From Tribonema minus (Eukaryota > Sar > Xanthophyceae > Tribonematales > Tribonemataceae), in contig JAFCMP010000521.1 of assembly GCA_017506865.1 (NCBI GenBank), positions 434,001-498,000 on the forward strand: DNA of 64,000 nt. Reading direction: 5' to 3'. How positions within the stretch are numbered: position 1 is the first letter of the stretch; every line of letters starts with the position of its first letter. Below are positions 983-63,913 of the stretch, piece after piece. A program made the position numbers and the translations under genes. A model generated the notes under the pieces. That model had not been told where the DNA came from. It was given only the letters and a program-made list of their open reading frames with translations, and searched no databases.

Positions 983-3900
983 ATGGAAGACGCTCACCAG
1001 ACACAGCCGGATACATCAGCGCTGCTCTATCAGCAAGCGCGGCAGCTGGAGCAGGATCACAAGCTGCCAGAGGCAGCAATCGTGCACCAGCAGGCGGCAG
1101 CCCTGGGTAACCCCGGATCCCAGCACTACGTCGCCAATGCTCTGGCAACAGGGGTGATGGGGTTGCCGCATGACGAGGCGAAGGCGATCATCCTGGAATT
1201 CTTCGCATTCGAGGGGGGGGACCCCGGAGCAGCTGCAAATCTCGGCTACCGCCATCTGCACGGCTACGGCGTTGCGCCCAACTGCCTGGCTGCGCTGAAG
1301 TACTACAGCGCAGCCGCAGAGTGGGCCATGGTGCGGAAGGCGGAGAGGGCGCTCTGGCCGTCCAGGGAGCGGATGAGGCTGAGCTCGATGGCGCTGCACG
1401 GCAAGCGCAGCCAGGCGGAGGTGGACGCGGAGGTGGTGCAGTACTACGAGCACTCAGCGGAGACAGGCAAGTCGTCGCGCGCTGGACCTGCTTGCTGCAT
1501 GGCTCAAGGCAAAGCCTGAGAATTGGGCAGCTGACAACACAATGACGACGGGTACTCGCAGCAGCGACGTAGCATTTGCAGTAACTGTTTGCATGCGCGT
1601 GGAGGCTTCATCAAGCTGCAGTTGTTGGGGGCATCAGAATTCAGGCTCGGACCTGGCATAAAGTAGCTATATGACAAAATAATGTGCGCGCAAGTCTGGG
1701 GTCACTGCTGTTTTGTGATGGGCATCGTCATCATTTCCATCTTCGTGTACTCGCATGTCATGCGCGCAATGCCCACAACACCTCAAATGATGCGGACTTC
1801 ACACAGTGTGCTCGGCTTGGCTTCTCCTGGCTGTGCAAGCGGCGGTGCGGAATTCAGTACAGCCGGTCTGATGTGAGGTCTATGAGCCACATAATCCGAA
1901 AACGGCTCGCTGCATATTTTCGGTCGGGCAGAGAAGGCGGCTCTCCTCGTTCAATCACCGTATGAAGCTGTTGCGTTGCGGCGCTGAATCGAGCGCAGCT
2001 GCTCGTATGGAGCCCGCAGGTGTGTGAGTCTCTCCCCAAGTCCCCTGACTCCCCACGCAGACACCCCTCCCAGGATGTGCTTGGAGACACATTTCGTGTC
2101 ATCAGCGGCAAACAGCATTCGCCGTCGTCTGGCGCCTGCTGCCTCACCCCCAATGCCTGTGCAGGCCCGTGTGCCCCCCCCCCCTGTACAGCCCGCGCAC
2201 ACGCGATGCTCGCTTTCGCCCCCCCCCCCCCCCCCCCCCCCACCCCCCGTCGCCTGAGCGCTGCTGCCGCCCCCCGCCCCCCCCCCCCCCGCGCGCGCAG
2301 GCAACCCCGAGGCGATGCGCGTGGTGGGCACGTTCGCGTACCAGGGCAGCCGCGGCGTCGCGCAGGACGCGGCGCGCGCGCGCGCGTGGTACGAGCGCGC
2401 CGTCGAGGTGGGCGACGAGATGGCGTATGCGGCGCTCGGGCGCATGTACCTGCTGGGCGTAGGCGGGCCGGTGGACGAGGAGAAGGCGCTGGAGCTGTTC
2501 AGGTGGACACCTCGTGCTGTTGGGGAGTGGCCTGTGGCGTGAGCCTCTATTGCCGGGGGGGGGCGCTTGGCCCCCTCGTGCTGTTGGGAAGTGGCATGTG
2601 GCGTGAGCCGCTGTTGCGGGGGGGGGGGGAGGGGGGCGCTTGGCATGCGGCGGGACGTTGCGGCTGCGCGTGCTGCAGCTTGTGTCTTGGGGGGGGGGGT
2701 GGGGGGGGGGGGGGCAGATAAACGCACGCGGCGCTGGGTTTACAGGTGTCGTTGCGGTATTGGTGCACGGGGTTGACTGCACTGGAGACTTGTATACTTC
2801 AACATTGAAGTAGTAGTCTCAGATGGCGCGATCAATAGTTTGGGGGAAGGGGCGGGGGTGCACGCAATTGCAGACAGTGATGTCGCGCTTGGCACAGCCG
2901 CCTTGATGGCAACCGACCCTAAGGACAGCGCCCAGTGGTGCGTCACGAAAATCTGGGTTTTGAGTTCACTGAGAGTTCACTGAGAGCAGCAGGTGCTCAC
3001 TGACGATGACAGCGGCTGAGTGGCTCCCTCCATGATGATTGCCATGCCTGCCAACAAACAATTCATGCTGCGCCTCTGTTCCAGATCGCGCCTGCCCGTC
3101 AGGTGGCGGAAGGCCCTCAAATTGATGTTGAACTTACAGCAGTGCTCGAACTCTCACGTCATCTGTACATACATGCACGGTCCTCACGAGGATCACGTAC
3201 GTCGAAGCATGTGGAAACGCAGCGCGATCGCTGCATGCTAGAACGAGTGGGCCGCGACGGCGCGGAACGCTGAGCGCTGTCAGGATGCGACTCGTTACGT
3301 GCAGGGAGGCGAAGGATTGCGGCCTCGCCGGTCTGTGCCAAATGGCTGAGCATTGTCATAACACGACTCGTTGCGTGCAGGGAGGCGAAGGACCGCGGCC
3401 TCGCCGGCTTGTGCCACATGCACCTGTACGGCCTGGGGGGGCTGCGCAGGGACAGGACCAAGGCGCACAAGCTGTGCGAGAAGGCCGTGGCGACGAGCCT
3501 GATCACGGAACAGGTGCGCGACGGAAGGTCGACGGGGGCATGCATCACTTTGGTTGCAACATGCAAGGCACGGCGCTCGTGCGTGCGCTACGCAGTGCAT
3601 GTTGCTCGGGCCTGTTTTGCATGAGGTGTACCGATTGCCACTGCGCGCATGTGCTGCGAGGAGAAGGAGGGAGGGCAGTGACTGCTGGAGCGGGCCGTTG
3701 AGACCGGCCACACGTTCGCCGCGCGGTTGCGCTGCTCAAACATCCTGCAAGTCACCTACTTCGAAGCACCAAACATTGCACGTGGAACTCGGCGGGAAGC
3801 GCAAGTTGCAGACACACAGCGGGCAAAGCCCCTGTACGCGCAGGTGTGGCCCCCTGCCGCTCCCTGCCGCGACTCTCATCTCCACCGGCATCGATTCTCG

Positions 3901-6900
3901 CCGCAGTGCGGCGTCAGCACCACGCGGACGCTGCTCTGAGCACTGCCGCGCCCCCTCTCGCGCCGCCAAATGTCACCGACTCGCGTGACCAACCTTCTGC
4001 ACCCCTAAACTTCAACTCATCGCTCCCTCCCCCGGCCCCCCTGATTGGGCCCCGCGCGTGCGCGGCGGCAGCACCACGCGGACGCGCTGACGCTGCTTTG
4101 AGCACTGCTGCGCCCGCTCTCGCCGCTACACATCACACGACTCGCGCGACCAACTTGCTGCGCCTCTAAACTTCAACTCGTTTTCCCTCCGCCCCCCGCG
4201 CGCGACTGCGGCGGCAGCACCACGCGGACGCGCTGACGCTGCTGGGCGACATGGCCGTGGAGGCGGACGTGCGCACGCCGCAGCGCTTCTCCAGCGCGCG
4301 CGAGGGCGGCGCCGAGCGCCGCGACTGGGTGCACCCAACCGACCGCCGCCGCATCGGCCCGGCCGAGTTGACGCTAGGTGAGCGATAAAACCTCAAGTTG
4401 AAGTTGGCTTATGAAAATTTCAAGTTGAACTTGGGAGCGGGGCGCCGCAGCGCTTCCAGCGCGCGCGAGGGCGGCGCCAAGCGCCGCGACTGGGTGCAAC
4501 CGACCGACCACCGCCGCATCGGCGCGGCCGAGCTGTCGCTAGGTGAGCCATAAACGTTCAAGTTGAAGTTGGAGTCAGGGGCCGCCGCAGCGCTCCGCCA
4601 GCACGTGCGAGGGCGAATGCGAGCGGCGTGGAACTTGTGGACCCCACGATCGCCACCGCGTCGGCGCAGCTGAGCTGACGCTGGGTGAGAACACTTCAAG
4701 TTTGTTGAAGTAGGGTCGATCCGCCGCTGAGCTGACCGTAGGTGATTGAGAAAACTTCATTTTGAAGTGGGGATAAAGGGCCGCCGCTGCGGCCGAGCTG
4801 ACCCTGTAGACTTGAAGTTGTAGTTGGGGCTGGATGCTGCGGCGGCGTCAGCACCGCTGATGCTCTGGTCGAGGCGCTTGCAGTCCGACCAACGGTGACG
4901 GACGCATTCAGTGCGGTAGCTTGCTGCTGTCTCTGAGGGGTGCAGGCCAGCTGGTGCTGTTATTGCCATGAAGGCACTCGACTACCGGTATGCTCGCACA
5001 GCGGCCCGTGCAGTGGTGCGTCATACACACTTCGACTTGAAGTCACGAGAGACCTGAACAAACAACACAACAACAACAACAACCACTTGTCAACCTTGGA
5101 TATTTCTCCTCCATACATTTCAATACATGTCATGGTGAATTTGAAGCCGCCCGACACTCTGTAGCGTACGTACGTCCTGTGTACGTGGTTTTCACAACGC
5201 ACATGCGCTGCATGCTGTTCATGAGTGTGACACTTTCTTCGCTAACCTCCGGTCACTGTCTCGCCATCTTTAAAGCAAGTCCAACAGCATGCTCGTGGCA
5301 AGCCCAACAGCATACTCGTGGCTACTTTGCCATGTTTGGCAGGTCTGTGCTCTGCAACGTCGCCGCATCTTGCCGCCTCTTGCACGCACTGATGACGCAC
5401 ATCCCTGCGGATCGGAATGAGCACACATGCGACCCTGTGCTTCAGAGCTGAACGCACATGTTTACGCGTTTCTGTTCCAATGTTGTACCCACTCCGCATC
5501 AGCGCTCAAGTACTACAGCGACGCCAGCAAGTCGGGCATCGGCGGGGATCTGGATGCTTTGTACAAGGTGGCGCAGATGTACCGCTTCGGCGAGGGGGAA
5601 AAGTTCAGCTGTCCCCTGGCTGTGACCACGATGGCGCAGGTACAAAGCTCATGTGCTGGAGTACAGTGAAGTTCATGTCAGGGCTTTCGATGATGAACTA
5701 GAGACCAGCGGGCATGAATGCATGCGTTTGCGATGCATTTGCATGGCCCGATGAGCACTTTTGGTACATCAAGGGCACTGTGTGCCGCGTGTGTGTGCCG
5801 TGCTGCACCACATGGCCGAGATTCCGCGAACAAACACTCCTTGAATGGGCGCGTCACTTGTAGTTGAAGTAGATCTGAACAGAGAGTTAACTGCAAATAG
5901 CCACCTGCGAAGTTGGCGCTCTGCGATGCATCACGACAACATGCGCTTCCGGAAGTACTTGAGGGTACATGCGTAGTCAGCACCACACCTGTTCAATGGC
6001 CTTCACACACTGGCAGTGAGCTGCAGTGCACATGCTGTTTGAACGCCTACACGCTTGATTCAACACCATCTTCGAGTGCTTCGGAGCGCACGGCTGGTCG
6101 CACGAGCTGATGCTGATACTATAATCCTCATAGCGGTTCCTCAAGGTTGCCGTGCAAGTCATGCAGCGCTGGGCGTATGCAGGAGCAGACCTCACAGCGT
6201 ATAGCGGGGCGCGATGCCGTCCCTGCGCGACAGAGCAGGCGGTGACGCCCCTCCCGCTAATGCAGCGCACGTCACGCGCACGGCGCGCGCTGTGCAGGCG
6301 TCTACCGCAACGCTTCTTCTCAACTCTACGCACTCGTGTCCTTGCGCATGGCCAACTTCCGGCCCATGACACCTTCGAGAACGTGTACACGCGCATGCAT
6401 ACGCCCCTCACACACACACTCACGCGCACGCATGCGTACCGTATCAACGCGCGGCCTCGCGTGCAGGTGGCGATGCACGGCGTGACGGCGGAGCTCTCGC
6501 TGGCAGCGCAGGAGCGGTACGTGTCGGGCGACGCGCGCGGAGCGTTGGCGCTGTTTGCGCAGGCCGCCGAGACGGGCGACGAGGTGAGCGTTGCCGCCGC
6601 CGCTGCTGCTGCTGCCGCCGCCGCTGCTGCTGCAGCAGCAGCGTAGCACAGCTGAGCTGTGCTACGCCACAATCACGCGCTGCTATGCGTGTGGGTGCAC
6701 CTGCACGGCGCGTTGCGGTGGATGACAGTTGAGCCATGCTGCTGCACGCGGTCCGACGGCGTGCACGACGTGCTCCCCTGCGGCGTCCTCGCCTCAAAGT
6801 TGCTGAGCCATGCTGCTGCGCTGCGCCTGCGCGCCGCCGCCGCAGGTCGCGCAGAGCAACGCCGCGTGGCTGATGGAGCGCGGCGCGTGCCCCGCGGAGC

Positions 6901-9506
6901 TGGACCGCGCGGAGTGCGAGCGGCGCGCGCTGCGGCTGTACCAGCGCGCCGCCGTGCGCGACAACGGCGAGGCGCACCTCAAGGCAAGCGCGCGCGTGGG
7001 GGACCGCTGCAATGACGCCCCCTCCTGCCCCCCCCCCCCCCCTACATGCACATTTCACCAGCAGTCGGCCTTCAAATTACGCCAGAAACGAGCTGCGTCC
7101 TGCAACACCGCTGTGCCGTTCGCCTTCGTCACATTCCAGTTTGATGGATTGGAGATGCGCCCGCATCACCCAACGGCGCGTCCTGCATGGGGACTCTGCT
7201 GTTCTCCTCGGGGACATGCCAGTTGCAGCGCTGCGAGGCGCGTCAGGGCGCGTCCAGTGTGCTGCCCTGAGCATCGATGCAGCGGCCTGCGTCGGCGGCG
7301 CAATGCGCGCGCGTTTGTGCAGGGGCGAGTACCGAGCGCTGAGCTGGTGGGGGTGTGAAGCAGGCCGTAATGCACGCGCACTTGTGTGGTGGCTGAAATG
7401 CGCTGGCAGTTTCAGGGCACTCTGCGAGCGTGCAGTGGCGCGCGGCAGCGCCTGAAGTACGCTCACACCTGTGCCGTGTTGTGCTCACTGCGAAACCCCT
7501 CTGCGCGCCGCCGCCGCTACCGCAGATCGGCGACTACCACTACTACGGCGTGGGCCTCGCGCGCGACGCCTTACGGGTGCCCACATGTGTTGCAGCTAGC
7601 CCTAAACAAAATCCTAACACCTGGGCGCACAGTACGAGCTCACTGTGAAGCCCCTCTGCGCACTCGCGCGCGCCGCCGCTGCCGCAGATCGGCGACTACC
7701 ACTACTACGGCCGCGCGGGCCTCGCGCGCGACGCCCACAAGGCGGTCAAGAGCTACGCGGCCGCCGCCGAGCGGCGCCTGCCGCAGGCCGTCTTCAACCT
7801 GGGCTGGATGTACGCGGCGGGGCGCGGCGTCAGGCAGGACTTTGTGCTCGCCAAGCGCAACTACGACCAGGCGGCGGAGCTGAACGCGGACGTGAGTGAG
7901 CGACGCGCGCGCGCAGCGCTCAGCAAGCCTACCGCGGTGTTCCACAACGCCTGCAGTATCTGATCTGATCCGTTTCTGATGGTTGTTGTGAGTCTCCCGC
8001 GGTTTCCCACACCAGCTGTAGTATCTGGCATGTAGCTGTTGTGGCCTTACGCCGGCGCGGCGGCAGCGCGCTTGCGTGTGCGTGCGTGTGCTGCGGTAGC
8101 GCTGCTTGGGACTACGTCCAGTGCATTGGGCGAGCGCCGCAGGCGTTCGTGGCAGCCATCAACTGCGCGTGTACCGAGGTGCTGCGATGATGCAGGTGAC
8201 GTGCCGCCAGCATAAGTTCAACTTGTTTGCAGTGTTCGCGCTCCAGGCGGCAGGGGTGAACGCAGGCGGGAGCGGCACCGCGCAGCCGTCTTGTTGGAGA
8301 GGCAGGCACACCTTCTTCTCAACTGCCAAACGACATTTCGCACGATGCAAAATGCAAAAGTCCTCGGCTGCCAATCTGCTCACGGCTGCAGATGAAACAA
8401 AAGCGCTGTCCTGCGTGTCCTGGCTGAGCGCCATCACCGCGCACGCGCACGCTCGCCGTGCTGCGTTCCAGCGCTTTGATGTTTGGACGTGCGGTGCAGC
8501 GACGCTTTGCATGCCCCGCGCTGCACGTCTGCGGCGCTGGCGCGCAGCCTCGGCCTCTGACCGGGCGCATGCGGGCATTGCGCCGCCGAGCATAGGCGAC
8601 GCACGATGCGTATGCACGCGCCAGCTTGGCGCTGATGCTTGGGGACCGTTCCCAGTGCTGCTCAAGTCAGAATGTCTCTCAACCCTGCCGCTGCCATTCG
8701 CCTCTTGCACGTACGCTTACGGGCAGCCGCATCAGCGAGCCTTATCTGAGGGCGCCAGCGCGCTGCACCGTGTACCCTGCGCGCGCTTGCGTGGCTGGCC
8801 GCGTACGCCTACCTGCCGCAAGACGCTTCAAGTGGGAGCAACGGTTATGTATGTCGGCGCCATACCCTGCGTTGCAACGCTGAGTTATGGTTGAACTTGA
8901 ACTCACGTTGCTGCCGCCGCCGCCACCCCCTCCTATCCGCTGCCGCCTGCACATGTGCCGTCGCAGGCGAGGCTGCCCGTGCAGCTGGCGCTCTGCGACA
9001 TGTACGCGCGCATGCACGTGCAGCGCTGGGCGCGCGCAGCGTCCGCCCTCCTGCACGCCCCTGAGCATCACCACCACCATCACCACGCGCACGCCCCAGG
9101 CGAGCTGCCGCAGTGGGTCTTCCCCGCCATCAAGCTCGCGCTCGCGCTGATGCTGGCGGTGGTGGTGCGCAAGTCGGTGACGCGCGCGCAGGGGGGAGGG
9201 GGGAGGCGCAACGGCGGCGCTGCTGCCGCCGCTGCTGCTGCCGCCCCCCCTTCCGCGGGGGCGGTGGGGGATGGCCCGCAGCAACGGCAGCAGAGTCACG
9301 GGCCGGCGGCAGGCGACGTGCGTGGTGCGGAGCAGCAGCTGCAGCCACCAGAGCAGCAGCCGCAGCCGCGGCAGCAGCAGCAGCAGGATGTAGGGCGTGG
9401 CGGCAGCGGCTCAATTCAGCAGGAAGACGTCGTGGCGGTGGTCGGCGAGAGGGCGCCGGATGGGGGCGGGGAAGTTGAGGTAGACGCGCACGCCCCCCCC
9501 GAGTAG
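983..9506 (+). CDS. HRD3: Hrd3/SEL1L-type ERAD adaptor with Sel1 repeats
   Basis: Exons: 983-1466, 2301-2502, 3381-3513, 4218-4377, 5503-5639, 6467-6583, 6846-6983, 7688-7891, 8967-9506. The phases agree and give 704 codons plus stop. Hrd3/SEL1L holds the Hrd1 ubiquitin ligase in the ER membrane and presents misfolded lumenal proteins. Sel1-type helical repeats run through exons 1-8. The order of blocks follows SEL1L closely: LGYRHLHGYGV, the AQMYRFGEG block, then VAQSNAAWLMERG, IGDYHYYG, VFNLGWMYAAGRGV and RLPVQLALCDMY. A single C-terminal hydrophobic segment (about residues 576-593, preceded by PQWVFPAIK) matches the family's tail anchor. A Gly/Ala/Gln-rich tail, presumably cytosolic, follows. 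A natural run of seven His lies in the linker before the membrane segment. No signal peptide is visible from this ATG, so a 5' exon may be missing. Introns 1 and 7 use GC donors (CAG|GCAAGT, AAG|GCAAGC). The join of exon 3 to 4 is the least certain. Confidence 0.88.
3288..3345 (+). repeat. 5' exon echo of HRD3 exon 3
   Basis: A 76-bp tandem duplication copies the acceptor and the first ~40 bp of exon 3 (true exon starts 3381). The copy keeps TGCAG and the GGAGGCGAAGGA sequence, then degenerates at the AAATGGCTGA segment, where it is no longer in a Sel1-like frame. It is a decoy acceptor or dead copy, not a second exon, because only the downstream copy continues into the Sel1 repeat. Confidence 0.8.
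3911..4200 (+). repeat. Two 5' exon echoes of HRD3 exon 4
   Basis: The sequence CAG|CACCACGCGGACGC that opens exon 4 at 4218 also occurs with its acceptor at 3918 and 4072. Period is about 150 bp. Each echo is followed by a shared intronic block ending in a TAAACTTCAACTC motif. The copy nearer the exon matches further (through GCGCTGACGCTGCT) than the distant one, so similarity decays with distance. Confidence 0.8.
4446..4830 (+). repeat. Array of four 3' exon echoes of HRD3 exon 4
   Basis: Downstream of the true donor (4377/4378, GACGCTAG|GTGAG) the exon end and donor recur at about 4536, 4686, 4743 and 4806. The copies shorten and diverge progressively (GTCGCTAGGTGAG, GACGCTGGGTGAG, GACCGTAGGTGAT, GACCCTGTAG). 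Copies are separated by motifs such as TTCAAGTTGAAGTTGG. This is the clearest gradient of decay in the window. Confidence 0.85.
7477..7636 (+). repeat. 5' exon echo of HRD3 exon 8
   Basis: A ~160-bp tandem duplication carries the acceptor CCGCAG and the first 45 bp of exon 8 (ATCGGCGACTACCACTACTA, echo at 7526-7570; true exon from 7688). Flanking intron sequence (CTCACTGYGAARCCCCTCTG) is also duplicated. The echo breaks off after GCGCGCGACGCC. Confidence 0.85.
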
Positions 9507-11873: not shown

Positions 11874-14384
11874 ATGGAGGGAGGAGCAGGAGCTGTGAAA
11901 GCGGGCTCTGCAGGCAAGGCAGCAACAAAGGCAGCTCCAGCCAGCGCTGCAGCTGCTGCAGTCGGTGATGCTGCTGGTGTTGTCCCTGCTCGTCCCGCAT
12001 CGGCCAAGGTGAGATGCTGCCAACTTATCAAGCCTACCGAGACGAATGTCGGACGTTTTCGTGCGCAGCGAAGACACCGTAGAGGTATCGCATCGCATCG
12101 CATCAAACGTTTATTCGCAGCTTGTCTAAACGTGCCTGGGGCTTAGCCAAGTGCGAAGTATTTCCAATTCACGTGTAAGAACGCGTTCAGCTTTTGCGGT
12201 TCAGGTGCTGCCTTGTTCGTCAAGTGAAGCTTGTGTACCTGAGTCACAGAGAAGCTTTGGGGTCATGTTATGCGGCTGACCAAGGGCCACAGCTTCAAGC
12301 TACTGCTTCTGTTACAGTCAAAGTTGTGTGCCATCACAAAATCCATGCAGCAGTTGCCTCAGACGCACAGTGTGGCTTCGCGATCATCGAGCCTCTTGAG
12401 GCCGGGCGCTCGGGCTCGTGCATTTGACAGACAGGTGTCCAGGCCACGAGCTCCACTGTTCCGGTGCTCCATGTGCTTCCCCAGCCTTGAGTGGTTGCCA
12501 ACTGCGGACTGCCCTCTCACCTCGGCCTGCACGCCCGCATACGACATGCAAATCACATGGCACGCCTCGCTGCCACAGCACTGACGCACCGGCAGTGGCG
12601 CTGCGGGAGCAAAGGCTCTTCCAGCCTTCAAGTCGAACTGCAGAGTTCGATGGGAGAGTGTCGGTCAGGCTGGGCGCACTGCATCCGTGACGTCCGCTGT
12701 CGCCACTGTCTCTGCCACCGCGATGCGTGTGAAGCTTTGTGTGCTGCGCCTGTGCGCTGTATCTGCGGATGACGCGAAAGCGTGAGACCGCTGTGAGCGC
12801 TCGCCCGCCATGCTGGCAGGGGGCGGCACCGCCGCGGCGCTGCCAACGATATCTCAACTGACACTGCTGCGGAACGAGCATCACTCAGCAGCACACGCCC
12901 GCCTCTCAAGCCCTCCACTCCCTCCCACACCTGCTGCAGAGGGCGTGCGACAACTGCTACATCCACAAGCGGCGCTGCACCGGCGACGGTGTGCCGCCGT
13001 GCGCGGCGTGCGTGCAGAAGGGCCTGGACTGCTCGTACAGCCCCGTGAGTGCCCCGCCCATGGCGCGCAGCGTCGCTCCGCAGTCCTGCCTGCTGCAGCT
13101 CCGAGGCGGCGCTCCCTCTCTGTGCACGCGCCAGTAGGGTGCGCCGGGGGCGTGAGTCGGAGGGGTGAGGCGGAGGCGTAAGGCGGAGCCGCGGGCCGTC
13201 GAACGCAGAATGTTACTCGGCTCGCGATCATCTTGCTGTTGGTGTGCCTGCCGGCCCGCCTGCAATACCGCAAGCCACTGTCACCAGCTGCGCGCATTTC
13301 GGAATCAAGAACTCTATCCCCTCTCTGAGACTGTTGTAACTGCGGAAACCTTCCGGCAACTTTAGGCCCATCGTGGCATGCCGGCCCCGCTTCTGCGCTG
13401 GCGCCGCTGCTGCAGTCGTACGATCGCGCCCCCGCGCGCACAGTGCACCTCTGCGACCGCACGTGCGCCTCGATGACGCCTCACCGCACCCGCCGTTGCC
13501 TGCCGCCCTCCGCCCTCGCGCCGCCGCCGCTGCCGCCGCCGCCGCCGCTGCAGCGCGCCGTCAGGACCTCGCGCCCGCGCCGCCGCCGCACCCTCGACGC
13601 CGACGCCGACGACGAAGCGGCGCTGCCGTTGAAGCGGCCGAGCACCGGCGGCAGCAGCGCTCATCAGCCCCCCCCCCCTCGCACGCGCCCCCCCCTGCCG
13701 CCCGGGGCAGGGGGCTGGGACGCCGCCGCATGGGGGTGCGGCAGTGATCAGCTCGCGGCGCCGCTGACGCACGTGCCGCGGCTCAGCCCGTCGAGCGCGA
13801 CGGGCCTGCTGGGCCTGCGCGAGCACCACTTCCTGGCGGCCTTCGTCTCCGCGTACGCCGCCACGCTCATCCAGTACGAGGCCGAGTTCCAGCCGGCAAT
13901 CGTGGAGATCATGCGCGCGGCCGGCGGCGGCGGCGGCGGCGGTGGCAGCAGCGGAGGCAGCGGCAGGGGCGACCTGCCGCTGGCGGACGCGGCGCCGCCG
14001 AGCGCGCCGCAGGCATCGCTGTGCAGCCTGTGGACGGCGATATCGTGAGTTGCGCGCGCTCCGTCATTCAGCGCGCACGCGCGCGTACGCGTACTCGAAG
14101 TATACTTCACGCGCTGCGTCGGTGGCTGCGCAGGTGGCGCCGGCGCTGAGGCCGCCCGGCGGCGCCGCTGGAGCGTTGGCGCTGGCGCCGCCGCCGCGCA
14201 GTCCGCTGTCACTTTGTTGCGCGCATACAGACGTCCATGGGTGCTCTTCCTCTGCTGCCGCCGCCGCCACTGATGCTGACACCGGCACCGTCGCCACAGC
14301 TGCTGTTGACGAAGACATCGCAGCTGCTGCTGATGCTGCTGCGGCTGCTGTCGCTACTGCCGCCGCTGCCGCTGACATCGCCAC

Positions 14385-14415
<31 letters not shown>

Positions 14416-33424: not shown

Positions 33425-33491
<67 letters not shown>

Positions 33492-36373: not shown

Positions 36374-36418
<45 letters not shown>

Positions 36419-37004: not shown

Positions 37005-37023
37005 GTTTCGGCCGTCGCCTGTG

Positions 37024-42480: not shown

Positions 42481-43058
42481 GATCACCAGAATCTGATCTA
42501 CTAGTAGGATAGCCATAGCCTCCTGGATATCTCAGAGGCTCATGGCAACTCTTTCATCACGCTCATGAGCGCTCAAACTTTCATTCAGCCACCACTACTG
42601 GTGGCACTCCGGAGCTCGAGCCTTGAAGTAAGTTCATCAGATCCTAGAGAGATCTGTCTACCCCATGGCAAGCTTTTGAGCTTCGGCCAGATGCATCCGC
42701 ATCCTGCATGACATTGTGTCTGAAGGCGCTGAGGGCGCGAAATCATTGATGATCATTACGGGCAACTAGGAATCTGGGGTGGTGCCAAGGCTGCAGGGTC
42801 TCGACCCCCCCTTGGCCCAATCGTCATCCTCATGCGTCCAATAGCAATTTAGAGAGCGAGCGGGATGATCTCACATTTGCTCTTAGCAGAACAGACCCTT
42901 CGGCCTTGACGGAAAAACTGTTTCGTATTTTTTTTATCCCACGTGTCCAGTGCCGCGACAAAGCAGCGTGGGGAGAGCGTCAAATCGCTTGCTAGTGCTT
43001 GATCGATCCAATTGACGCATCGGCGATTGGGGAGCATTGCAGGAGAGAGCGTGCGCAG
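42447..43058 (-). repeat. Right inverted repeat arm
   Basis: Reverse complement of the left arm with scattered substitutions and a small A-run length difference. Its outer end lies 41 bp upstream of the gene C start codon. The element must therefore contribute to, or interrupt, the gene C promoter or leader. Confidence 0.9.
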
Positions 43059-43099
43059 TATATTCGCGTGGAGAGAGCTCTTGAGTGCGTGGTTGCAGA

Positions 43100-44510: not shown

Positions 44511-44542
<32 letters not shown>

Positions 44543-48816: not shown

Positions 48817-48855
<39 letters not shown>

Positions 48856-52983: not shown

Positions 52984-53014
<31 letters not shown>

Positions 53015-53968
53015 GCAGAAGCGGACAGCGAAGACACGGACGCAGACGACGCCGGCATGTCTGACGCTTCCGACTGCGGCAGCGCCTCGATGGGGCGCAG
53101 CTGGGGCGCTGCGGCGGCCGGCTTCGGCGGCAGCGGCGGCGGCGGCGACGCGCAGTACGCGGCGCGCCTGTCGCCCGGCGACGCGGCGTACGCCGGCGCC
53201 TCCGGCGGCTACTCGTCGCTGACGGCGGGCGTCGCCGCGGAGATGGCTGCTTCGTCTGGCGGCGGCGCGGGCAGCTATGGCGCCGCGGGCGCGTACGGCG
53301 GCGGGTACGGCGTCTATGTCACACGTGCAGTGCCGGTGCCGGCGACTGCGGCGTGCGACGCCGAAATGGGCGACGCGCCGTACGCGCCCGCGGCGCGCTA
53401 CCGGCCGCCGTACAGCACGGCGGTGGAGGACGTGGAGATGCTCGCGGCGCCCGGCGGCGGCAGCGGCGGGGGCGCGCGGCGCTACAGCGGCAGCGTGATG
53501 GCGCCGAACGGCGCCCTGCTCGCGCCGCCGCTGCAGCCGGTGCTGCTGCTGCCGGGGTGGAGCGAGCCGTCGCCGCTCGCGCGCGGCAGCAGCGGCGGCG
53601 GCGGCGGCGGCGGCGCCGTGCACCGCGGCAGCGCGTCGTACACCGCCGGCAGCCTCGGCAAGGACGCGTCGTCGCCGTGGGGCGGGTTCAGCGACTCGGT
53701 GCGCAGCGGCGCCGCGACGGACAGCACGGCGAGCATGACGAGCTGGGTGAGCCACAGTAGCGGCACGGGTAGCGCGTTTGCGCTGGGTCAGGACAGCACG
53801 TTCTCCGTTGCGGCCCAGGACAGCGTGAGCCCGTTCACCGCCGCCGGCGGCGGCGGCGGCGGAGGTGGCGGCAGCAGCAGCGGCAGCGCGCAGGACCGCT
53901 CGCAGTGGGCGCCGCCGCCGCCGCCGCACGCGGAAGATCAGAACTGGGTTTCGGCGCGGGGGACCTGA
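43100..53968 (+). CDS. Fungal-type Zn(II)2Cys6 transcription factor, paralogue C
   Basis: Exons: 43100-43236, 43616-43685, 44274-45046, 46794-46929, 47401-47513, 47936-48086, 49189-49344, 50306-50497, 51431-51517, 52061-52209, 52795-53968. Phases agree and give 1045 codons plus stop. An intron splits the zinc cluster between Arg46 and C47: C37, C40, C47, C55, C58, C65 (CX2CX6CX7CX2CX6C). A basic KRGPKPK linker is followed by a long Gln/His tract (44374-44590). Then come LSVTHVALMLGAKEHRF, LWAAIAFGAVLHGA, FYLYLANAERVAEG and SWVMLQCLRIV. Further blocks are EAGGCIQGAQ, LLPVLITLDERGMQ, LLVGDE, PAWRHS and WVAALLLSAGML. The tail is Gly/Ala/Ser-rich and lacks the acidic-hydrophobic motif of A and B. 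Exon lengths 156, 87 and 149 match A. Start context is AGAATG with A at -3, only 41 bp after the transposon end. Choice of the exon 3 acceptor (44273) is uncertain by a few codons. Confidence 0.85.
45774..45967 (+). repeat. Three-copy 65-70-bp tandem repeat
   Basis: Each unit starts with CAGGCCATG, contains ACTTCTWTCATGAAGCYGGT and ends with AGYTGAAGT. It lies in intron 3 of gene C. Copies differ at about 10-15 positions. Confidence 0.9.
47013..47052 (+). repeat. 3' exon echo of gene C exon 4
   Basis: A copy of the last ~35 bp of exon 4 and its donor (GCGCGCAAACCGCCGCCGAT then GACGAGGTGATGA) lies ~110 bp after the true donor at 46929/46930. Only two or three substitutions separate them. Confidence 0.85.
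48087..48330 (+). repeat. Two 3' exon echoes of gene C exon 6
   Basis: After the true donor (GGCGCGCAG|GTGCGTCACGCC at 48086/48087) the exon end and donor recur at 48189 (almost identical, GGCGCGCAGGTGCGTCACGC) and about 48290 (GACGCGCTGGTGCGTCGCGC). All three are followed at the same offset by the TTGAAGTT motif or its variant (TTGAGGTTT, TTGAAGTTC, TTGAAGTTG). Confidence 0.9.
48791..48862. repeat. (CA)n microsatellite
   Basis: An ACACAC run with a few G interruptions lies in intron 6 of gene C. Confidence 0.95.
49018..49670 (+). repeat. 5' and 3' exon echoes around gene C exon 7
   Basis: A 5' echo (CGCCGCAGGCGCGGCAGCTC, ~49030) precedes the exon (49189-49344). Two 3' echoes (49386-49456, 49578-49652) follow. 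They repeat the last ~70 bp and donor: CGCGCCTGCTGCCCATGCTC and CGCGCCTGCTGCCCGTGCTC, each ending GGCCTGCAG|GTGCGY. Both 3' echoes begin just after a TTGAAGT motif plus TGCTGTGTGATGAGCG. They have no acceptor of their own. Confidence 0.9.
50510..51000 (+). repeat. 3' echoes of gene C exon 8
   Basis: The exon end (GTGGGTCATGCTGTTCCAGT ... GGCGACGAG|GTGCGC) recurs at 50561-50612 with small indels. Two more diverged units follow, each led by TTGAAGTTGAAGTT and a TTTCAGCGGTG or TTTCTAGCGGTG block (50643 and 50832). Units lengthen and diverge away from the exon. Confidence 0.8.
52230..52560 (+). repeat. 3' echoes of gene C exon 10
   Basis: Degenerate copies of GAGGGCAAGGCCGCCATGTG and CCAGTGCAG|GTG occur at 52288-52340, 52402-52440 and 52500-52545, separated by GAAGTC or TTCAAGTTG variants. 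Confidence 0.7.
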
Positions 53969-55944: not shown

Positions 55945-58900
55945 ATGTTCCAGCTGAAGAACTTTTTCTCGTCCTCTAGCAGAGACGTGGGAGGATCACG
56001 CGGGTCGACGCCTCGGGGAGAGCAGCAGAGGAAAAAGGGGGGCCGCGAAGCAGGAGGAGCGCGCGATACCAATGGTGCCTTGGCGGATATCGACAAGCTG
56101 GATATTACTCACATTACCAGCAGGGTAATAGGTGAGTGAAACACTTCCGCTACTGGTGTGGTGCAGCGCTCTGTCGCATGCAGCGCTCGAAGGCAGTTGC
56201 ACTGTTACGTGAGGAGGCGGCTGTGCAACAGGCAGCAGCAGCTGCTGGTGGCGCTGTTACTGTGACGCAAGATTGAGGTTGCTATTGCTGCTGCTTCCAT
56301 ACATCAAACATGTGTGTAGTGCAGGCGATGGGGAATGCAAAGCAGTGCACGTGTCGCAGTGTTGCCCGAGTCATGTACATAGCCTATGCCTTGGACAGCT
56401 GGTGCACCACCCCTCGGCAGTATCAATGTTCACATCGGCAGCCACTGGGACCGTCAGCCGCTGGTATATCGTTTCCCTTTATGACAGAAGTCGCAGGCGC
56501 TGCTGTCGTGCGCAGCAGCAGCATGCCAATATCACCAGCAGGCACCATGTGTGCACAGCTGCACGAGCATCGTCATGGACCACGCGCCCTGACAACTGCC
56601 ATATACCGCAGTCAGCGCTACGGGAAGTGGCGAGCATTCGCTCCGTAGTTGTATTCCACCCGGTACTGCTCGCACGCGACAGTGCACCCTCTCAAGTAGC
56701 AGCAGCGCACTGTGTTGACAGCGCAGCGGATAGTGACATGTGAAGCACTTCCACAACAGCTTATGGGCTGTCGGCACACTTCCACATCACTGGTGCTCAA
56801 GTAGATGATTGCGGTCACTGCACGCGCCCGCACGTGGCGGAGTCTGTCGTAACCGCAGTAGTATCATAGAAAGATAGTTGCGGCGTGTAAACCCCCCCCC
56901 CCGCACTTGACAGTAGGGTGAACAGGTCCCCAACGTCCTGCCACCGCCTACGACAAACCAGCATAGCGCGCGTACGCCACGCTGCCCGCATCAAGCGCCG
57001 GGAAGCCGGCTGCGCGCCGCGCTGCTGAGCGCTGCTGCGCGCGCAAGCGGCGCCGTGCTGCAGCAGCGGCAACAGCAGCAGCAGTAATGCCCTCAGCCAT
57101 AAGCCCAACGTGCACTGCTGCCGCCAGCACCCAGGCGTCACAGCGAGCGATTGCGCCGCCTCAAGCACGTCCGCCCCGTCGCGCAGCAGCAGCAGCAGCC
57201 GCCGCCGCTGCTGCCGTCATTTGTCAGCCGCCGGCCAGCGCAGGCAGTAGGCCACGAAACTGTCGATAGAAGAGCGTGAAGGTGTGCAGCCGCTCACAGT
57301 TGGTGTGTAGGGACGTCCCTTTGCGTGGGCAGCAGGCGCGACCACTGGCCGCAGCCGCGGCAGCAGCGCGCAAACTGCGCTGCCGGCAGCAGCGACGGCG
57401 ACGGCGGCGGCAGCAGCACCTTCTGTCGTCGGCGGGCCATGCACCCCATAGTGCGCTCTTCATGCGCAGAGTCGTGCTGTACCGCCTGCGCGCTCGCTGC
57501 CGCTTTCGTACCTGTAGCGGCGGGGCGAGAGCCCGCTGCCACACGCGAGGGGGCTGTGTGATGACGGGCCCTGTCCATACCTCCTGGCACCTCTGCGCAA
57601 GTACGTTTAGTGACACGCATTGAAGCGCGTACACAGTTGAAGTAAGCGACAATGCAAGGTGAATTTGCAGAGCGCCGGCGGGCGGAGCGCGGCTCGTTCC
57701 TGCCGCAGCTATGTGCGCTGCCGAGCGCTGTCTCTCTCTCTCTCTTAGGCTGTGCGGTCTGGTGACGTGGGCGTCCAAGTAAGACGTGTGTTTGCAGCTC
57801 TGACGCGCGGAGCGCAGCCCGCTGCCGCCGGAGAGCGGTCGCTTGACAGCTCTGTCGGCGTGCTGCTGCCGAGCGCGCTCTCGTCATCCGGCGGTCATGC
57901 GCGCACTGCGGCCTCGTGATTGCGGAGCAGCGCGCCCGCTGCCCGGTGCGGCGTGTCAGCGCGCTGTCTCTGCCGCTCAGGGGCATCCGCGCCGGGCATC
58001 TCGACCACCCGGAACACGGCAGAGGCGCCGGACGACAGGCGCAGGCCGCGATACGGAGCGCAGCGGCAAGGCGCTGACGCACGCGCAGTGCAGCCACGCG
58101 CCGCGCCTTACCGTAACGTCATCGCTGACAACCCCCCCCCCCCCCCCCCGCGGCGCACGCGCATTCACAGCCATGGGCTACGCGCACGACGGCCCCAGCA
58201 GCCGCGACGCGTGCCGCAACAACGCGGACCTCCTCGGCGCGTACCTCGCGGCGTACCACGGCGGCCACTTCCTCGTGTGGAGCGTCGCCGCCGACGGCGG
58301 CAGCAGCGCTCAGTCGAAAAAGCTCTGGGACAGGCTGGGGGGGCAGGTGCTGAATGTGTCGTGGGATCCGCGCGAGAGCGGGGGCGGCGGCGGCGGCGGC
58401 GGTGAGGGGGGGGCGGAGGAGGAGGAGGAGGCGTGCTGCCTGCACCCGCCACTCGGGCAGCTGGTGCACCTGTGCTACAGCATGCAGGGCTGGCTGGAGC
58501 TCCACCCGCAGAACGTCGTCGCGGCGTGCTGCCGCGTGGAGCAGCGCACCGCGGTGCTCATCGCGTGCTACCTGCGCTACTCGGGCGAGGTGAGGCGCGT
58601 GCAACTACGGTTACAGTTACATTTACAGCTAAAAGAGTGCGCGGCGTGCTTACATTTACAGTGGAAACAGTGCGCGGCGTGCTGCTGCGTGGAGCAGCGC
58701 AGGGCCGTGCTCGTCGCGTTCTACCTGCGCCACTCCGGCGAGGTGAGGCGCTCAAAGTTACAGTTGCACTTGCGGTTGGAGAGTCACGCGGCGCGCTGCC
58801 GCATGGAGCAGCGAGCGGCATCGCTCACCGCCTGCTGCTGCTGCGCTGCTGTGGCGAGGCGAGGCAGTTACATGACAGTTTCTGGGGGAGCAGGCTGTCA

Positions 58901-61900
58901 CGCAGCGCAGCGCGATGCGTGTGAAAGTGCAGCGGTGTAGTCGGCGGCGGAGGCAGCGCGCCGCCTGGGGCGGTGGGCGGTGGCGCTCGTTGCGGGGACC
59001 CTGAGCGGCTCCGACGAGGTACTGTGACAGTTGCAGTTGCACCTAGGCAGATCAGGAGTAGGGCCAGACAAATGCGCAGAGCAGCGCCTCGCCAGGCTAC
59101 GAAGAAGGCGCAGTGCTGGACAGCGGCGGCAATGCGGCACCGGCGGCAGTGCCGCGTGCAGCAGAGGGTGGCGCTATTTGTTGAGAGTTAGGGTTGGCGT
59201 TAGGGGTGACTGCGCGAACCGGCAGGCGTTGCAGCTCTCAGGCGCTAGCGCAACCTCAAGTCTCCCCCGGGCACCATCGCATTGAGCGAGCAGTCGCGGC
59301 TTGTGCAGGAGCGGGTGCCTCCCCGCACAGCAAGAAGTGCAGGACAGCTTCAAAGTTGAAGTTTGGTGCGCCCGTCCGCCTTTGAGGCCAGTCAGCAGGA
59401 ACTTCAACTTGCGCTGAGGACATGCACAGCAACGGCCTGCTTATGTCAAGTTTGCAGGCAAGCAAGCACGTGAAGAACGTGGCACACAAATGATGTCATA
59501 AAGATGTTTGCTTGGCCCTCTCAGTTGATGCCAACAGCCGTCACCACAGGGTTTCAAGCCCTGACTGCAGGATCGCTAGGAGTTGGCGGGATGTGGGCTG
59601 GGGGTTACCCCTTGGCGGCTCTCTCAGTTGGTGGCAACAGCTGCCAGTGCAGGGTTCCACGCCCTGATTGCAGGATGGCTAGGATGTTGTGTGACGCGGG
59701 CTGGGGGTGTCCCCTGAGCATGTTGCCCTGCTCATGGTCGGTTAGGGTCAGGTCGATGCCAGGCTCCAGGATTCTGCCAGTGAGCGTCGTGGGCATTGGA
59801 GACCGGTGCCTGTGAATGGTACCTGCGCCAGACGATGGACGTCACTCACGGCGCGCCCTCTCCCGATTCGATGCCTTCGCCGATCGCCCACCATGTTGGC
59901 AAGCATCTCGAGAGTTGCATGCTTGTGGTGTATGGATGTACATGCCCTGCATCGCACGCTTGGCTGGTACGGCGGTCACGCTTGCCAGTGGACACAGACT
60001 CAATGCAGCACGTTGCCTTCTAGCAGCACATGGCTGGCGTCGGTCTCCTGTGGCACCGGTCACCTCGACGTCTACCTCTGGCGGTTCACAGCAGCGGCCC
60101 GCCACGCTGCGCCCCCCGCTGTGCTATGTATCCGGCGGTCACCCCTGTCGTATGTTAGGGTCAGGGCTAGGGTTAGGGTAAGGAGCACCCCGCATTCGAC
60201 GCGCAATGGCACCAGGCACCGATGCCATCAGGGGCAACGGTAGCCTGCAGCGAACGCTGAAACTCCCAATGCGCGCTCTCTCCCCACGCGATGCCCTTCG
60301 CTGTGTCAGGCGACGACAGCCTGCACCAGATGCCAACTGTTGCTGCGCTCTCCCCCCCACACGCGATGCCCTCCCGCGCCCGCCCCCCCCCCCCCCCCTG
60401 CCAGGAGGCCTTTGCGCTGGAGGCGTACAAGAAGGTGCGTGAGAAGCGCCACATGAGCGGCGCGGGGCGCGCGGCGACGGGGCGCGGCGACATGTCCGAC
60501 GTGCCGCCGAGCCTGCGCGTGCTCTTTGCCAACTTCGACCAGTACATGGTGAGTGAAGCGGCGCTGACACTTCTTCAATTTAAAGTTTCTTGTGTGCGGC
60601 GACGGGCCGCAGCGACATGTCTGACGTGCCGCTGAGCCTGCGCGTGCTCTACGCGAACCTCAACCAGTACATGGTGAGCGCTGAGACTTCTTCAACTTGC
60701 AGTGCGTAATGTGCGGCAACGGGCTGCAGTGTCAGGTCATTTGGACATGCTGTCGAGCCTGCGCGTGCTCGTTTCGAACTTCAGCCAGTTCACGGACGAG
60801 CGCTGTTCGCTGCAGCTTGGCAGATCTTTTCACCTTCACAAACTTCGCCGCTTGTGCAGCGACTGCAGCGCCGCATCACCTCTCACGGGACCACTCCGGC
60901 TGCGCAGCTTCACTCCTCGTGTGACCACCGCTGTCGCCGGCTTGATGCGCGATGAATCGTGTCGCTGCGCGGCAGCGCCGGCTCAACCCTTACCCTAGCC
61001 CTACCCCCCCTAACCCCGCTGCGGAGCTGGCGCGGGATGGCGCACAGCCGAACGGCGCCGCATGCGACTCGTGCCGCCGTCGCCGCAGCTCCTGTAACTG
61101 TCCGATGCGTAACTGTCGCGGCCAAACGCCCGCGCAGGGGCTCCGATGCGTAGCCAGCCGCCACCGCTGAGCGTGCGCGCCACAACTGCCGCCGCTTCCG
61201 TGTGAGTGTGTGACGTGCGCCCCGCGCAGCCAGGGTTAGGGTTAGCGCTAGGATTAGGGCCAGAGTGCGCAGGGAACTCTGACGTCGGTACTTGCCGGCT
61301 GCTGCGCGCGCGCCACCGCCGCCGCCGATCCAACTGCTGTAGTTGCCCCCGTCACGCAGGTATCACAGAGAGCGCCTCTGTAACTGTCGGACATGTAACT
61401 GTCCACTGGCGCAGGTCGCGGGGCGCCTCCCGGACCCCACCGTCCTCACGCTGCTGAACCTGACGCTGGAGGGCATGCCCTCATGTATCACAGAGAGCAA
61501 CTGTAAATGTCGGATGTGTAACTGTCCACTGGCGCAGGTCGCGGGGCGCCCGCCGGACCCCACCGTCCTCACGCTCCTGAACCTGTCGCTGGAGGGCATG
61601 CCTTTGATGGACGCCGCGCCGTGCGTGGACGTGTGGGACCAGCAGTCGCTCGTCTACACGACGGCGCACCCGGGCGCGGACGAGGTGCTGTGGAACGCCG
61701 ACGAGGGCTTCTTCTTCCACAAGGTATGTGGGTGTATAGTTCTAACACTGAGGCAGCTGCTTCTCCCGCGAGGCGCGCGCGCGGCAAGGGGTGCCTAGGA
61801 GTGAGGGCTGCGGCGGAGGCGCGATCGGATGAGACGCACGCGGGGCGGATTTGTATAGAAGTACATTTCAAATACATGACTGTCTCAATGTGTTTACGAA

Positions 61901-63913
61901 GCGTGTAGTGAGGGTTGGACGCGAAATCAGACGGTGTGGAACTAGTATTGTGGGGCGCGAGCGTCGGCTTCCTCTTTAGAATGGTGCGTGGGGGGGATTA
62001 CGTGGGCTCGTCGTCAGATGGTGTGCACGCAGGCACTTCGGAACGCGATCGGCGGTGTTTGGTTTCACTCAAGGCGCCGGGGCACAATTGGATTGCCATA
62101 GCTGAGGCGCCATCACATGTGATACATGGGGGTAGGCTTGTATATGTTCGTTCAGGGGCTTGCGCCAGTGTGGCAGGCACGCTGGGAAGTCACAGTTCAC
62201 AGCCACGTGACTCGACACCACATTCGCCTGTCCTCTGCGTGAATGACAGCCCCAGTGTTTTCGGCGCACACACATGTGGAACTGAAATCGCGTTCGGACT
62301 GCGCGCGTGGGGGTCCTTTTACGAGGTGCGCACGCGGGGCTTGCGGTGACCGTGAGGTGGCACGGCTCGGCGGCTGCAGACTGGCTGCTACACATGTGCG
62401 GCCTCAACATACCAATGTACCCCCCCACACACACACGCCCCCCGCCGCGCGAGCAGATCAACCGCGCGCTCTGCGGCGACTTTGTCATCGTCGTGCGCTT
62501 TGGCGGCGGCGACGACGACGATAATGCGGCGGCGGGCCTGCCGCCGTACAGCGACACGCGCGTGCTGCTGCGCTACGCCAACTGCGCGGGCTTCGTGCTG
62601 CCGGGCGTGCCGCTGCGCCTGTCACTCGACGAGATCGACGTCAGCGCGCGCTACGCGGACGGCTTCGACGGCGGCTTCTGCATGACGGCCGTCTTCGACA
62701 CGGTCGACGGCAGCGCGATACAGGACGACCAGGTGCGCTGCGCGCGCGGCGCCCTCCCCCCGTGCTGAGCACTGCAATGCTTGAAGTTGGTGTCTCATTT
62801 CCTTCTCAAGGTGAAGTCGGGGTCAGTCCCTGCCAGCATAGCAGCAGCGGCGGCGACGGCAGCGCGATACAGGACGACCAGGTGCGTGGCTCCCGCGCTG
62901 AAGAAGCGGGTGAAGCATTGGTCGCGGCTCTCGATGCTGCTGGCCTGCCGCCGTGAAGTGCGGTACGGGTACGCGACAGGCTTTGCTCATGCGTCCTGCA
63001 TGACGGCTGTCTTGGACACGGTCGACGGCAGCGCGATACAGGACGACCAGGTGCGCGCGCGCCCCCCCATGCTGCGCACCGCAATACAGTACTTGAAGTT
63101 GGTGTTTCGCTCCCCCTCTCAAGGTGAAGTTGGGGCTCTCAGTTCAGTAGCGACACCATACAGCCACCGGGAGCGGCAGCGGTCCTGCATGACGGCCGTC
63201 TTCGACACGGTCGACGGCAGCGTGATACAGGACGACCAGGTGCGTAGCCCCCGCCGTGCTGAGCGTTTGTTCCCCTCATGTGAAGTTGGGGCTTTCTCAG
63301 CTATTGTTGAAGTTCGGTGGCAAGGTAATACAGCCACTTGGGGAGCGCGGCAGTGGCGGCGCAGCGCGCCGATGGCGATACAGGACGTCCAGGTGCGCGG
63401 GCATCGCCGTGCTGAGCGCTGCGGCGGCGGGTGAAGCGTCCATTGCGGCTCTCGGCGCTGTTGGCCTGCCGCTGTGAGGTGCGCTACGCGACGGTCCCTG
63501 ACGACGCATCCTTCATGATGGTCGTCTTCGAGACCATCGACGGCAACGCCGTTCCGAATGATCAGGCCCCCCTCCGCTGGGTGTTGCGATGGATGATGTC
63601 GACGCAGTCCCTCGCAGCCTGGCTCTGGCAGCACTGGCAGCGCTTGCGTAACCTGCCTGTGCCTTCTGCGTCGCGTCTGGCTCGGCCCTTGTCTTGTGCC
63701 TCGCACAACATTACTGTGACAACACCTCTGCGACCGATAGCGCCTAACATATCATGGCCCGCTTCGCCGCCTCTCGCGCCATGACAGTACTTCAGCGACG
63801 CGCTGGAGCCGCTGCTGCGCGGCGCTGCCGCCGCCGCTGCTGCTGCCGCTGCCGCCGCCATCTGTCACCACGGTTTTCGTCACATCCCGGCATCGGCAGC
63901 ACAGCTACAGTAG
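55945..63913 (+). CDS. PTEN: PTEN-like phosphatase with tensin-type C2 domain
   Basis: Exons: 55945-56131, 58171-58589, 60405-60548, 61538-61723, 62457-62732, 63788-63913. Phases agree and give 445 codons plus stop, close to PTEN (403). PTEN removes the 3-phosphate of PtdIns(3,4,5)P3 at the plasma membrane. Exon 1 ends in LDITHITSRVI and exon 2 opens AMGYAHDGPS, the PTEN family entry motif. RNNADLLGAYLAAYHGGHFLVWSV matches the N-terminal phosphatase strand-helix. The P-loop is C182-CRVEQ-R188, so the CX5R Cys and Arg are kept, but the usual HCKAGKGR glycines, His and Lys are changed. A Gly/Glu insertion of about 24 residues separates WD from HPP in the WPD-like loop. Exons 4-5 form the C2 domain (LTLLNLSLEGMPLMD, LVYTTAHPG, CGDFVIVVRF, RLSLDEIDVSARYAD). 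The last exon ends in an Ala run and a TAG; the protein could continue if a further exon is used. Auxilin-like or formin-like PTEN domains are alternatives, less likely because the length fits PTEN. Confidence 0.8.
58600..58870 (+). repeat. Two 3' exon echoes of the PTEN-like exon 2
   Basis: The exon end and donor (GCGTGCTGCCGCGTGGAGCA ... GGGCGAG|GTGAGGCGC, 58589/58590) recur at 58673-58758 (encoding AACCCVEQRRAVLVAFYLRH) and more weakly at 58786-58865 (AARCRMEQRAASL). Here the separating motif is GTTACAGTTACATTTACAG-like rather than TTGAAG. The frame stays open through both copies. Confidence 0.9.
59187..59206 (+). repeat. TTAGGG-like interstitial repeat
   Basis: GTTAGGGTTGGCGTTAGGGG in intron 2 of the PTEN-like gene, a degenerate telomere-type sequence. 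Confidence 0.7.
60154..60183 (+). repeat. TTAGGG-like interstitial repeat
   Basis: GTTAGGGTCAGGGCTAGGGT followed by TAGGGTAAGG, intron 2 of the PTEN-like gene. Confidence 0.85.
60590..60800 (+). repeat. Two 3' exon echoes of the PTEN-like exon 3
   Basis: The last ~80 bp of exon 3 and its donor recur at 60597-60676 (ACATGTCTGACGTGCCGCTG ... CAGTACATG|GTGAGCG, keeping the frame) and, more diverged, at 60711-60797. ACTTCTTCAA motifs separate the copies. Confidence 0.9.
61231..61260 (+). repeat. TTAGGG-like interstitial repeat
   Basis: CAGGGTTAGGGTTAGCGCTA followed by GGATTAGGGC in intron 3 of the PTEN-like gene. A related run (CTTACCCTAGCCCTACCCCC) lies near 60990-61015. Confidence 0.85.
61410..61481 (+). 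repeat. 5' exon echo of the PTEN-like exon 4
   Basis: The acceptor CACTGGCGCAG and the first ~65 bp of exon 4 are present twice: echo from 61415, true exon from 61538. The echo stops at GGAGGGCATGCCC. Both copies are preceded by TGTAACTG-type hexamers. Only the second continues into the C2 domain. Confidence 0.9.
61920..61990 (+). repeat. 3' exon echo of the PTEN-like exon 4
   Basis: A diverged copy of the exon end encodes ELVLWGASVGFLFRM and ends in GGTGCGTG, matching the true end EVLWNADEGFFFHK and its donor. Confidence 0.75.
62780..63570 (+). repeat. Five 3' exon echoes of the PTEN-like exon 5
   Basis: The exon end CAGCGCGATACAGGACGACC|AG and donor recur near 62881, 63050, 63239, 63393 and 63565. 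The copies at 62998-63050 and 63184-63239 also keep upstream sequence TGCATGACGGCYGTCTT. The outermost has the same layout but many changes. Most units are led by CTTGAAGTTGGTGT or GTGAAGTTGGGGCT. Confidence 0.9.

Follow-up and report, generated by a model that had tools for sequence, protein, structure and literature searches.

Tandem copies of exon edges in introns of the xanthophyte alga Tribonema minus

Tandem exon duplications and vestigial exons are known as copies of whole exons with both of their splice sites, and introner elements as dispersed copies of introns. The introns of T. minus hold copies of another kind, here called echoes. Like vestigial exons they are degenerate, exon-derived copies in neighbouring introns, but unlike the products of tandem exon duplication they are partial, with one exon edge each. 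Like introners they are repeated sequence that shapes the introns of an algal genome, but they are local and copy exon edges, a difference already pointed out in an earlier, sequence-only reading of this DNA.

Two further systems are comparable. In work on the potato RdRp gene, where introners are also mentioned, a tandem duplication of an upstream intron-exon structure is described (PMC4974935). As there, a duplicated exon-intron stretch in T. minus brings exonic sequence and splice signals into an intron; unlike that case, existing introns are lengthened, a new intron is not required, and junctions have been duplicated repeatedly, in many genes and often as arrays. The second system, in mammalian cells with Cas9-nickase breaks, yields small tandem duplications when breaks with complementary overhangs, for which a length of 50 bp is named, are filled in and then end-joined, with CST/Pol alpha-primase (PMC8355091), a process marked by its dependence on the structure of the break ends and on CST, Ku80 and 53BP1. 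The T. minus copies are likewise small, direct and tandem, but their spacings mostly exceed that 50-bp overhang, the mechanism in T. minus is one we infer, and the passages available of PMC8355091 do not mention the junction preference found here. Open-access literature, judged by title and the start of the abstract, yielded no description of such exon-edge duplications.

Exon-edge copies in the window and elsewhere in the genome

The window, the whole stretch of 64,000 nucleotides analysed, belongs to a T. minus assembly of 158 Mb in 554 contigs and holds five genes (Table 1), of which the HRD3/SEL1L-like gene encodes the deposited protein JKP88DRAFT_350563 of this xanthophyte. The name 'PTEN' given earlier to the last gene is weak, its best PDB match having E 0.06 and a Pfam match being absent. 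Exons were defined by homology, paralogy and splice-site joining, a codon-trained ORF search and frame-wise Pfam having been too weak for the task; the models of genes B, C, D and the PTEN-like gene come from paralogy and open frames, not from transcripts. The joining rule was tried on a CCT-alpha gene elsewhere in the genome, whose exons are identical from about residue 50 on to the EukProt Trinity protein P0001, as judged over the exons of the fetched stretch, where the predicted joins give the P0001 sequence; its closest named relatives are from brown algae, Vaucheria and Chrysoparadoxa. The top choice was the join of the transcript protein in 6 of 7 gaps, and at the seventh it skipped a small exon that has no Pfam hit.

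Several other features of the window may be recorded here. Two HRD3 introns have apparent GC donors (1467, GCAAGT; 6984, GCAAGC), and gene C at 30233-29998 is without an intron common to B (22678-23729) and D (51431-52209). Gene B contains an imperfect palindrome of ~525 bp (16629-17154) with more inverted arms at 16333-16453 and 17156-17277. Between B and C lies a 622-codon open frame (26417-28285, + strand) without a Pfam family, for which no protein match was found among 8000 candidates scored. The gap between C and D holds an inverted pair of ~620 bp at 94% identity (39404-40015 and 42447-43058, with ~2.4 kb between them), which is perhaps a mobile element.

Table 1. Genes, exon echoes and motif examples in the window (position 1 is its first letter)
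Feature	Position	Strand	Remarks
HRD3/SEL1L-like gene	983..9509	+	nine exons in this model; T. minus JKP88DRAFT_350563 (P0121)
Acceptor echo	3290..3344	+	before exon 3381-3513; exact 76 bp tandem 3269-3344 / 3345-3420
Acceptor echo, farther	3907..3931	+	before exon 4218-4377
Acceptor echo, nearer	4062..4097	+	before exon 4218-4377
Motif examples	4378-4445, 4180-4200		see text
Donor echo 1	4443..4554	+	after exon 4218-4377; part seemingly an exon in deposited P0121
Donor echo 2	4583..4689	+	after exon 4218-4377
Acceptor echo	7511..7570	+	before exon 7688-7891; part seemingly an exon in deposited P0121
Gene B, paralogue 1 of 3	12910..25754	+	Zn2Cys6 domain 12910-13110
Donor echo	21015..21058	+	after exon 20583-20738; 82%, edge score 39, below the count at >=40
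Second short donor echo	21345-21364	+	after exon 20583-20738
Donor echo	23798..23854	+	after exon 23581-23729; spacing 110
Gene C, paralogue 2 of 3	28300..36614	-	
Donor-side echo	29827..29900	-	exon 29998-30233; ends 9 nt before donor, 'bad' in unit-level test
Acceptor echo	31669..31722	-	before exon 31454-31609; 74%, edge score 33, below the count at >=40
Gene D, paralogue 3 of 3	44214..53968	+	
Donor echo	47008..47052	+	after exon 46794-46929
Two donor echoes	48127-48202, 48244-48302	+	after exon ending 48086
Acceptor echo	49028..49067	+	before exon 49189-49344
Donor echo 1	49400..49461	+	after exon 49189-49344
Donor echo 2	49595..49660	+	after exon 49189-49344
Donor echo	50560..50622	+	after exon 50306-50497
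Donor echo	52300..52348	+	after exon 52061-52209
PTEN-like gene	58173..62732	+	four exons, single open frame
Two donor echoes	58673-58751, 58787-58865	+	after exon 58173-58589
Two donor echoes	60596-60678, 60713-60795	+	after exon 60405-60548
Acceptor echo	61400..61479	+	before exon 61538-61723; tandem 61357-61479 / 61482-61602, 90%
Four donor echoes	62854-62886, 62996-63062, 63185-63244, 63375-63398	+	after exon 62457-62732

The edge test used 111 placed exon edges, of which 59 are donors and 52 acceptors, from 14 genes, the five of the window and nine chaperonin (PF00118) loci which were found by Pfam profile and had not been picked in the sequence-only reading; some of the sample thus comes from a window chosen for the phenomenon. 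All ten PF00118 gene clusters were fetched. One, L032, lay outside the edge tests, its exons not being joinable, and two acceptor echoes are visible in its profile table; several others (e.g. L031, L034, L037, L038) entered in part, and exon edges that could not be placed are excluded from every count. A probe of at most 56 bases spanning each edge was aligned to the adjoining intron, a score of 27 being the 99th percentile of 1801 non-cognate comparisons and a score of at least 40 defining a strong copy. Strong copies were present on the expected side of 26 of the 111 edges (donors 17/59, acceptors 9/52), against 0/80 on the wrong side and 0/111 in reverse complement; at scores of at least 27 the corresponding counts were 33/111, 2/80 and 5/111. 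The chaperonin genes contributed strong copies at 10 of 51 edges and the window at 16 of 60, rising to 22 of 60 at the lower threshold.

The exon-edge copies observed in the sequence-only reading are accordingly real, and its account is confirmed in part. It had held that partial copies of the adjoining exon are present in introns of each of the five genes and on either strand, that at least 16 edges have them, and that copies lie with a fixed polarity, and on each of these points the counts agree. For HRD3 exon 4 the two 5' copies stand, as do two firm 3' copies of the four claimed, the other two being short (~4735, which is also an alignment, and 4800, read by eye). For PTEN exon 5 (exon 4 here, ending at 62732) four of the five claimed 3' copies were mapped; the remaining one, at ~63481-63549, has diverged. 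Profile tables of the whole genome, read by eye, showed echoes as hits that duplicate a terminal part, 3' or 5', of an exon next to them. The chaperonin table has such hits in 4 of its 56 rows (two of them beside a single exon), the kinesin table in 2 of 132 and the myosin table in 0 of 96, and all six echo rows of this three-family tally have the expected polarity.

This polarity needs no special machinery, selection on the reading frame being a sufficient cause. A duplication within an exon, or a copy on the wrong side, alters the protein; a copy that preserves the exon has to fall on the side of the intron, with the junction included. Pairs with both copies in exons numbered 0, where random placement expects 17%, and the single pair of 42 to be put in the wrong class involves a copy in gene C aligned up to 9 nt before the donor.

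Local direct repeats are not peculiar to edges or to the window. With simple repeats masked, the window has 48 direct and 6 inverted repeats within 3 kb, against 0 direct and 0-2 inverted in ten block-wise dinucleotide shuffles. In 200 kb of other sequence (20 stretches, each 10 kb long, taken at round coordinates from 18 further contigs) there were 108 direct and 3 inverted repeats within 3 kb; at least one direct pair occurred in 17 of the 20 stretches, with 51 of the 108 pairs concentrated in three. Direct local duplication thus characterises this genome, and the copies are present on many contigs beyond that of the window. Such repeats cover 18.4% of 39,685 annotated intron bases, and echo alignments 6.8%; the earlier phrase that introns are 'built from' exon copies is hence too strong, recognisable exon copies making up ~7% of intron bases. 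Short interstitial telomere repeats of TTAGGG type are also strongly enriched (31 matches per 200 kb, with 10-mers hundreds-fold above expectation) and occur at random loci as well as in the window, at 15238, 15449, 15484, 60170, 61008 and 61233.

The locality of the repeats also bears on the idea that echoes are mobile introner-like elements or an assembly artefact, which we find scarcely credible. Introners are known creators of introns. They also figure among the models listed in PMC4974935; yet two echo units searched genome-wide matched their own array alone, among the best candidates scored, as two other repeat-bearing stretches matched themselves alone, again among the best candidates scored. 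Dispersed elements were rejected on this ground, near-identical dispersed copies not having been found. An artefact is opposed by the 73-100% identity of the 47 mapped copies, which is unlike that of collapsed or doubled reads, and by the many contigs affected.

Structure and decay of the duplicated units

Copies were mapped at 27 of the 31 edges scoring at least 33, giving 47 copies from which those with an alignment ending short of the edge (e.g. gene C 29827-29900) are excluded. The 32 donor and 15 acceptor copies each contain one edge and 13-115 nt of exon, the probe having been cut at 120 nt, a length none reached. When the sequence 3' of the copy was matched to that 3' of the exon, z exceeded 4 for 33 of the 47 copies, was 2-4 for 10 and below 2 for 4, so the unit is an exon edge plus tens of intron bases, repeated head to tail. 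With direct and local orientation and this head-to-tail continuation, the copies are those of tandem genomic duplication. Nearest-copy spacing was 100-200 bp at 107 of 172 loci, with a median of 148-152 in each of three identity classes, and 68-204 bp at 26 of 27 exon edges; alignments <28 and simple repeats were excluded, so spacings below ~50 bp are undetectable. The chaperonin array L036 (3480-4500) has six mapped copies, in which the downstream, intronic end is near-constant and the exon starts vary, as read by eye. Introns that bear echoes are longer (median 905 bp, n=22) than those that do not (592 bp, n=30; p 0.017), which may be an effect of the echoes, or longer introns may merely offer more room for them.

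Alignments of exon with copy have 88.7% identity in their exonic parts and 71.6% in their intronic parts. The 227 exonic differences in the 47 copies comprise 105 synonymous and 122 nonsynonymous changes, a synonymous share of 0.46, where 0.27 is expected without constraint on either side; by our own arithmetic the share would be ~0.41 for a free copy compared with a constrained exon and ~0.79 if both were constrained. The observed value lies near the former, and the copies are thus close to neutral. Pure neutrality does not predict the better-kept exonic parts seen when copies are compared with each other: identity is 78.9% in exonic and 69.2% in intronic parts, the exonic being higher in 26 of 34 pairs, of which 27 come from three arrays, and ungapped 25-nt windows give ~77% and ~69% (30 pairs). 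Exon-like sequence may decay more slowly, or may be converted from the exon. The fading of copies with distance from the exon, which the sequence-only reading had described, did not hold up: in pairs of copies from one array, the closer one had the higher similarity in 23 of 36 (rho 0.10, p 0.50).

It has to be asked whether echoes are retained as functional alternative exons or decoy splice sites. GT or AG is kept in 42 of the 47 copies (window and chaperonin genes), leaving extra GT/AG sites, and the deposited HRD3 protein has two echo-derived peptides, so that echoes seem, from the sequence, to have been annotated as exons in the public HRD3 model (P0121). Retention for function is nevertheless very improbable. 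The frame is broken by 18 of the 20 indels in copies, the other 2 being in-frame. Our echo-less HRD3 model fits homologues better in 14 of 15 comparisons and has a best SEL1L structure match of 186 bits against 149 bits for the deposited one, two models that also differ in C-terminal length and in small peptides that follow exons 1 and 7. CCT alpha, the sole transcript-matched gene, skips its one short echo (edge score 38). A role as coding or alternative exons was rejected on the lack of a conserved frame and the worse fit to homologues.

Preference for exon-intron junctions

Among 41 viable nearest pairs, 24 (0.585) include an exon edge, compared with 0.21 under random placement (p 1e-7), which supports the earlier proposal of local tandem duplication at exon-intron junctions. 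An excess of this kind could arise under uniform, neutral tandem duplication if the frozen exon keeps its copy recognisable, edges then merely looking special. Such a reading would accommodate the near-neutral decay of the copies and the higher identity of exon than of intron parts in exon-copy alignments, and it draws support from the base-wise counts, in which match rates at the low threshold are nearly equal for intron-internal probes and exon edges (24.6% and 29.7%; 95% interval of the ratio 0.84-1.62). The interval becomes 0.995-2.94 at scores of at least 40 and 1.56-10.5 at scores of at least 60; the base-wise excess is weaker than the event-wise one and rises with stringency, and exon freezing alone might yield such a rise.

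We nonetheless consider uniform duplication unlikely. When duplications of 150 bp were simulated with uniform placement, the exons being frozen, the copies decaying and the detection unchanged, the edge fraction was 0.19-0.23 in four settings (four replicates for one setting and three for each other), well short of that observed, the excess corresponding to odds ratios of 4.9-5.9 in the three settings where these were computed. Taken by themselves, the chaperonin genes have an exon edge in 9 of 15 pairs (p 0.006 against one simulated setting, the last). Most tellingly, pairs lying in introns (<8 nt of exon), to which a frozen exon can hardly lend visibility, crowd the splice junctions as well, 8 of 17 falling within 30 nt of one where 1.7 are expected (p 1e-4); an echo copy takes part in 3 of these 17 pairs and in one of the 8 near a junction. 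On the simulations and these junction-near intronic pairs we reject a purely detection-driven excess, and we conclude that junctions are favoured sites of duplication in this sample.

What marks the junctions might be a sequence motif. In introns of the annotated genes TTGAAGTT is 9.8-fold above third-order expectation and clusters just after donors: 12 of its sense matches lie in the initial 50 nt of the 52 introns and 0 in the final 50 nt. The antisense form shows a weak lean towards acceptors, with 5 matches in the final 50 nt and 3 in the initial 50, and the two could pair across the intron. In this particular form of junction targeting, a motif prone to hairpins, with TTGAAGTT near donors and AACTTCAA near acceptors, would act as a stall or break hotspot that sets one end of the unit. 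Of the 17 echo donors, 8 have the motif no more than 100 nt away, as do 5 of 42 other donors (p 0.006), and 12 of the 32 donor copies are preceded by it, compared with 9.7% of intron windows; the near-constant downstream end of the L036 array, again as read by eye, points the same way. Against this, the motif was picked post hoc, copies of one array are not independent, 9 of the 17 echo donors are without it, and at acceptors the antisense bias is weak, the motif being beside 2 of 15 acceptor copies alone. It may also be a splicing signal merely carried along by the duplicates, and we regard a motif-set unit end as quite improbable.

A model of intron lengthening and its consequences

Junction-preferring short tandem duplications, together with survival of the intact exon, probably offer the best explanation of the copies, polarity, head-to-tail structure, locality, junction excess and near-neutral decay observed in this sample. 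Head-to-tail duplications, mostly at 100-200 bp spacing, would occur throughout T. minus genes with a preference for exon-intron junctions. A duplicate that straddles a junction would survive only if one exon stays intact, leaving a spare copy in the intron, which downstream of the exon would consist of its 3' part and the donor and upstream of the acceptor and its 5' part. Selection would then keep the original exon and splice site frozen, with near-neutral drift in the copy and in the intronic part of the unit, so that the exon part would stay recognisable longest. Introns would in this way lengthen from their ends and accumulate decoy splice sites.

How junctions come to be preferred can be addressed at two levels. 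A junction-aimed process tied to transcription, splicing or junction chromatin, possibly marked by TTGAAGTT/AACTTCAA, which adds units of ~100-200 bp at both intron ends and leaves decoy sites, is a tentative proposal that we rate somewhat below even chances. More doubtful still is our best guess at a specific cause, that staggered or paired-nick breaks around the junction, their position perhaps set by transcription or nucleosomes, are filled in and end-joined. Nicks on opposite strands ~100-200 bp apart would give units of the observed size, and transcription, chromatin or the TTGAAGTT motif are candidate sources for a clustering of nicks at junctions.

The finding has a practical side, as the deposited gene model takes echoes for exons and the two resulting peptides worsen the fit of HRD3 to its relatives. 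If mis-annotation of this kind, seen in the one gene checked, is common, proteomes and the studies of intron gain that use them would be affected. Should the model be true, T. minus would show, in a concrete form that can be counted, how introns gain length at their ends, and would have a mutational process with a preference for splice junctions.
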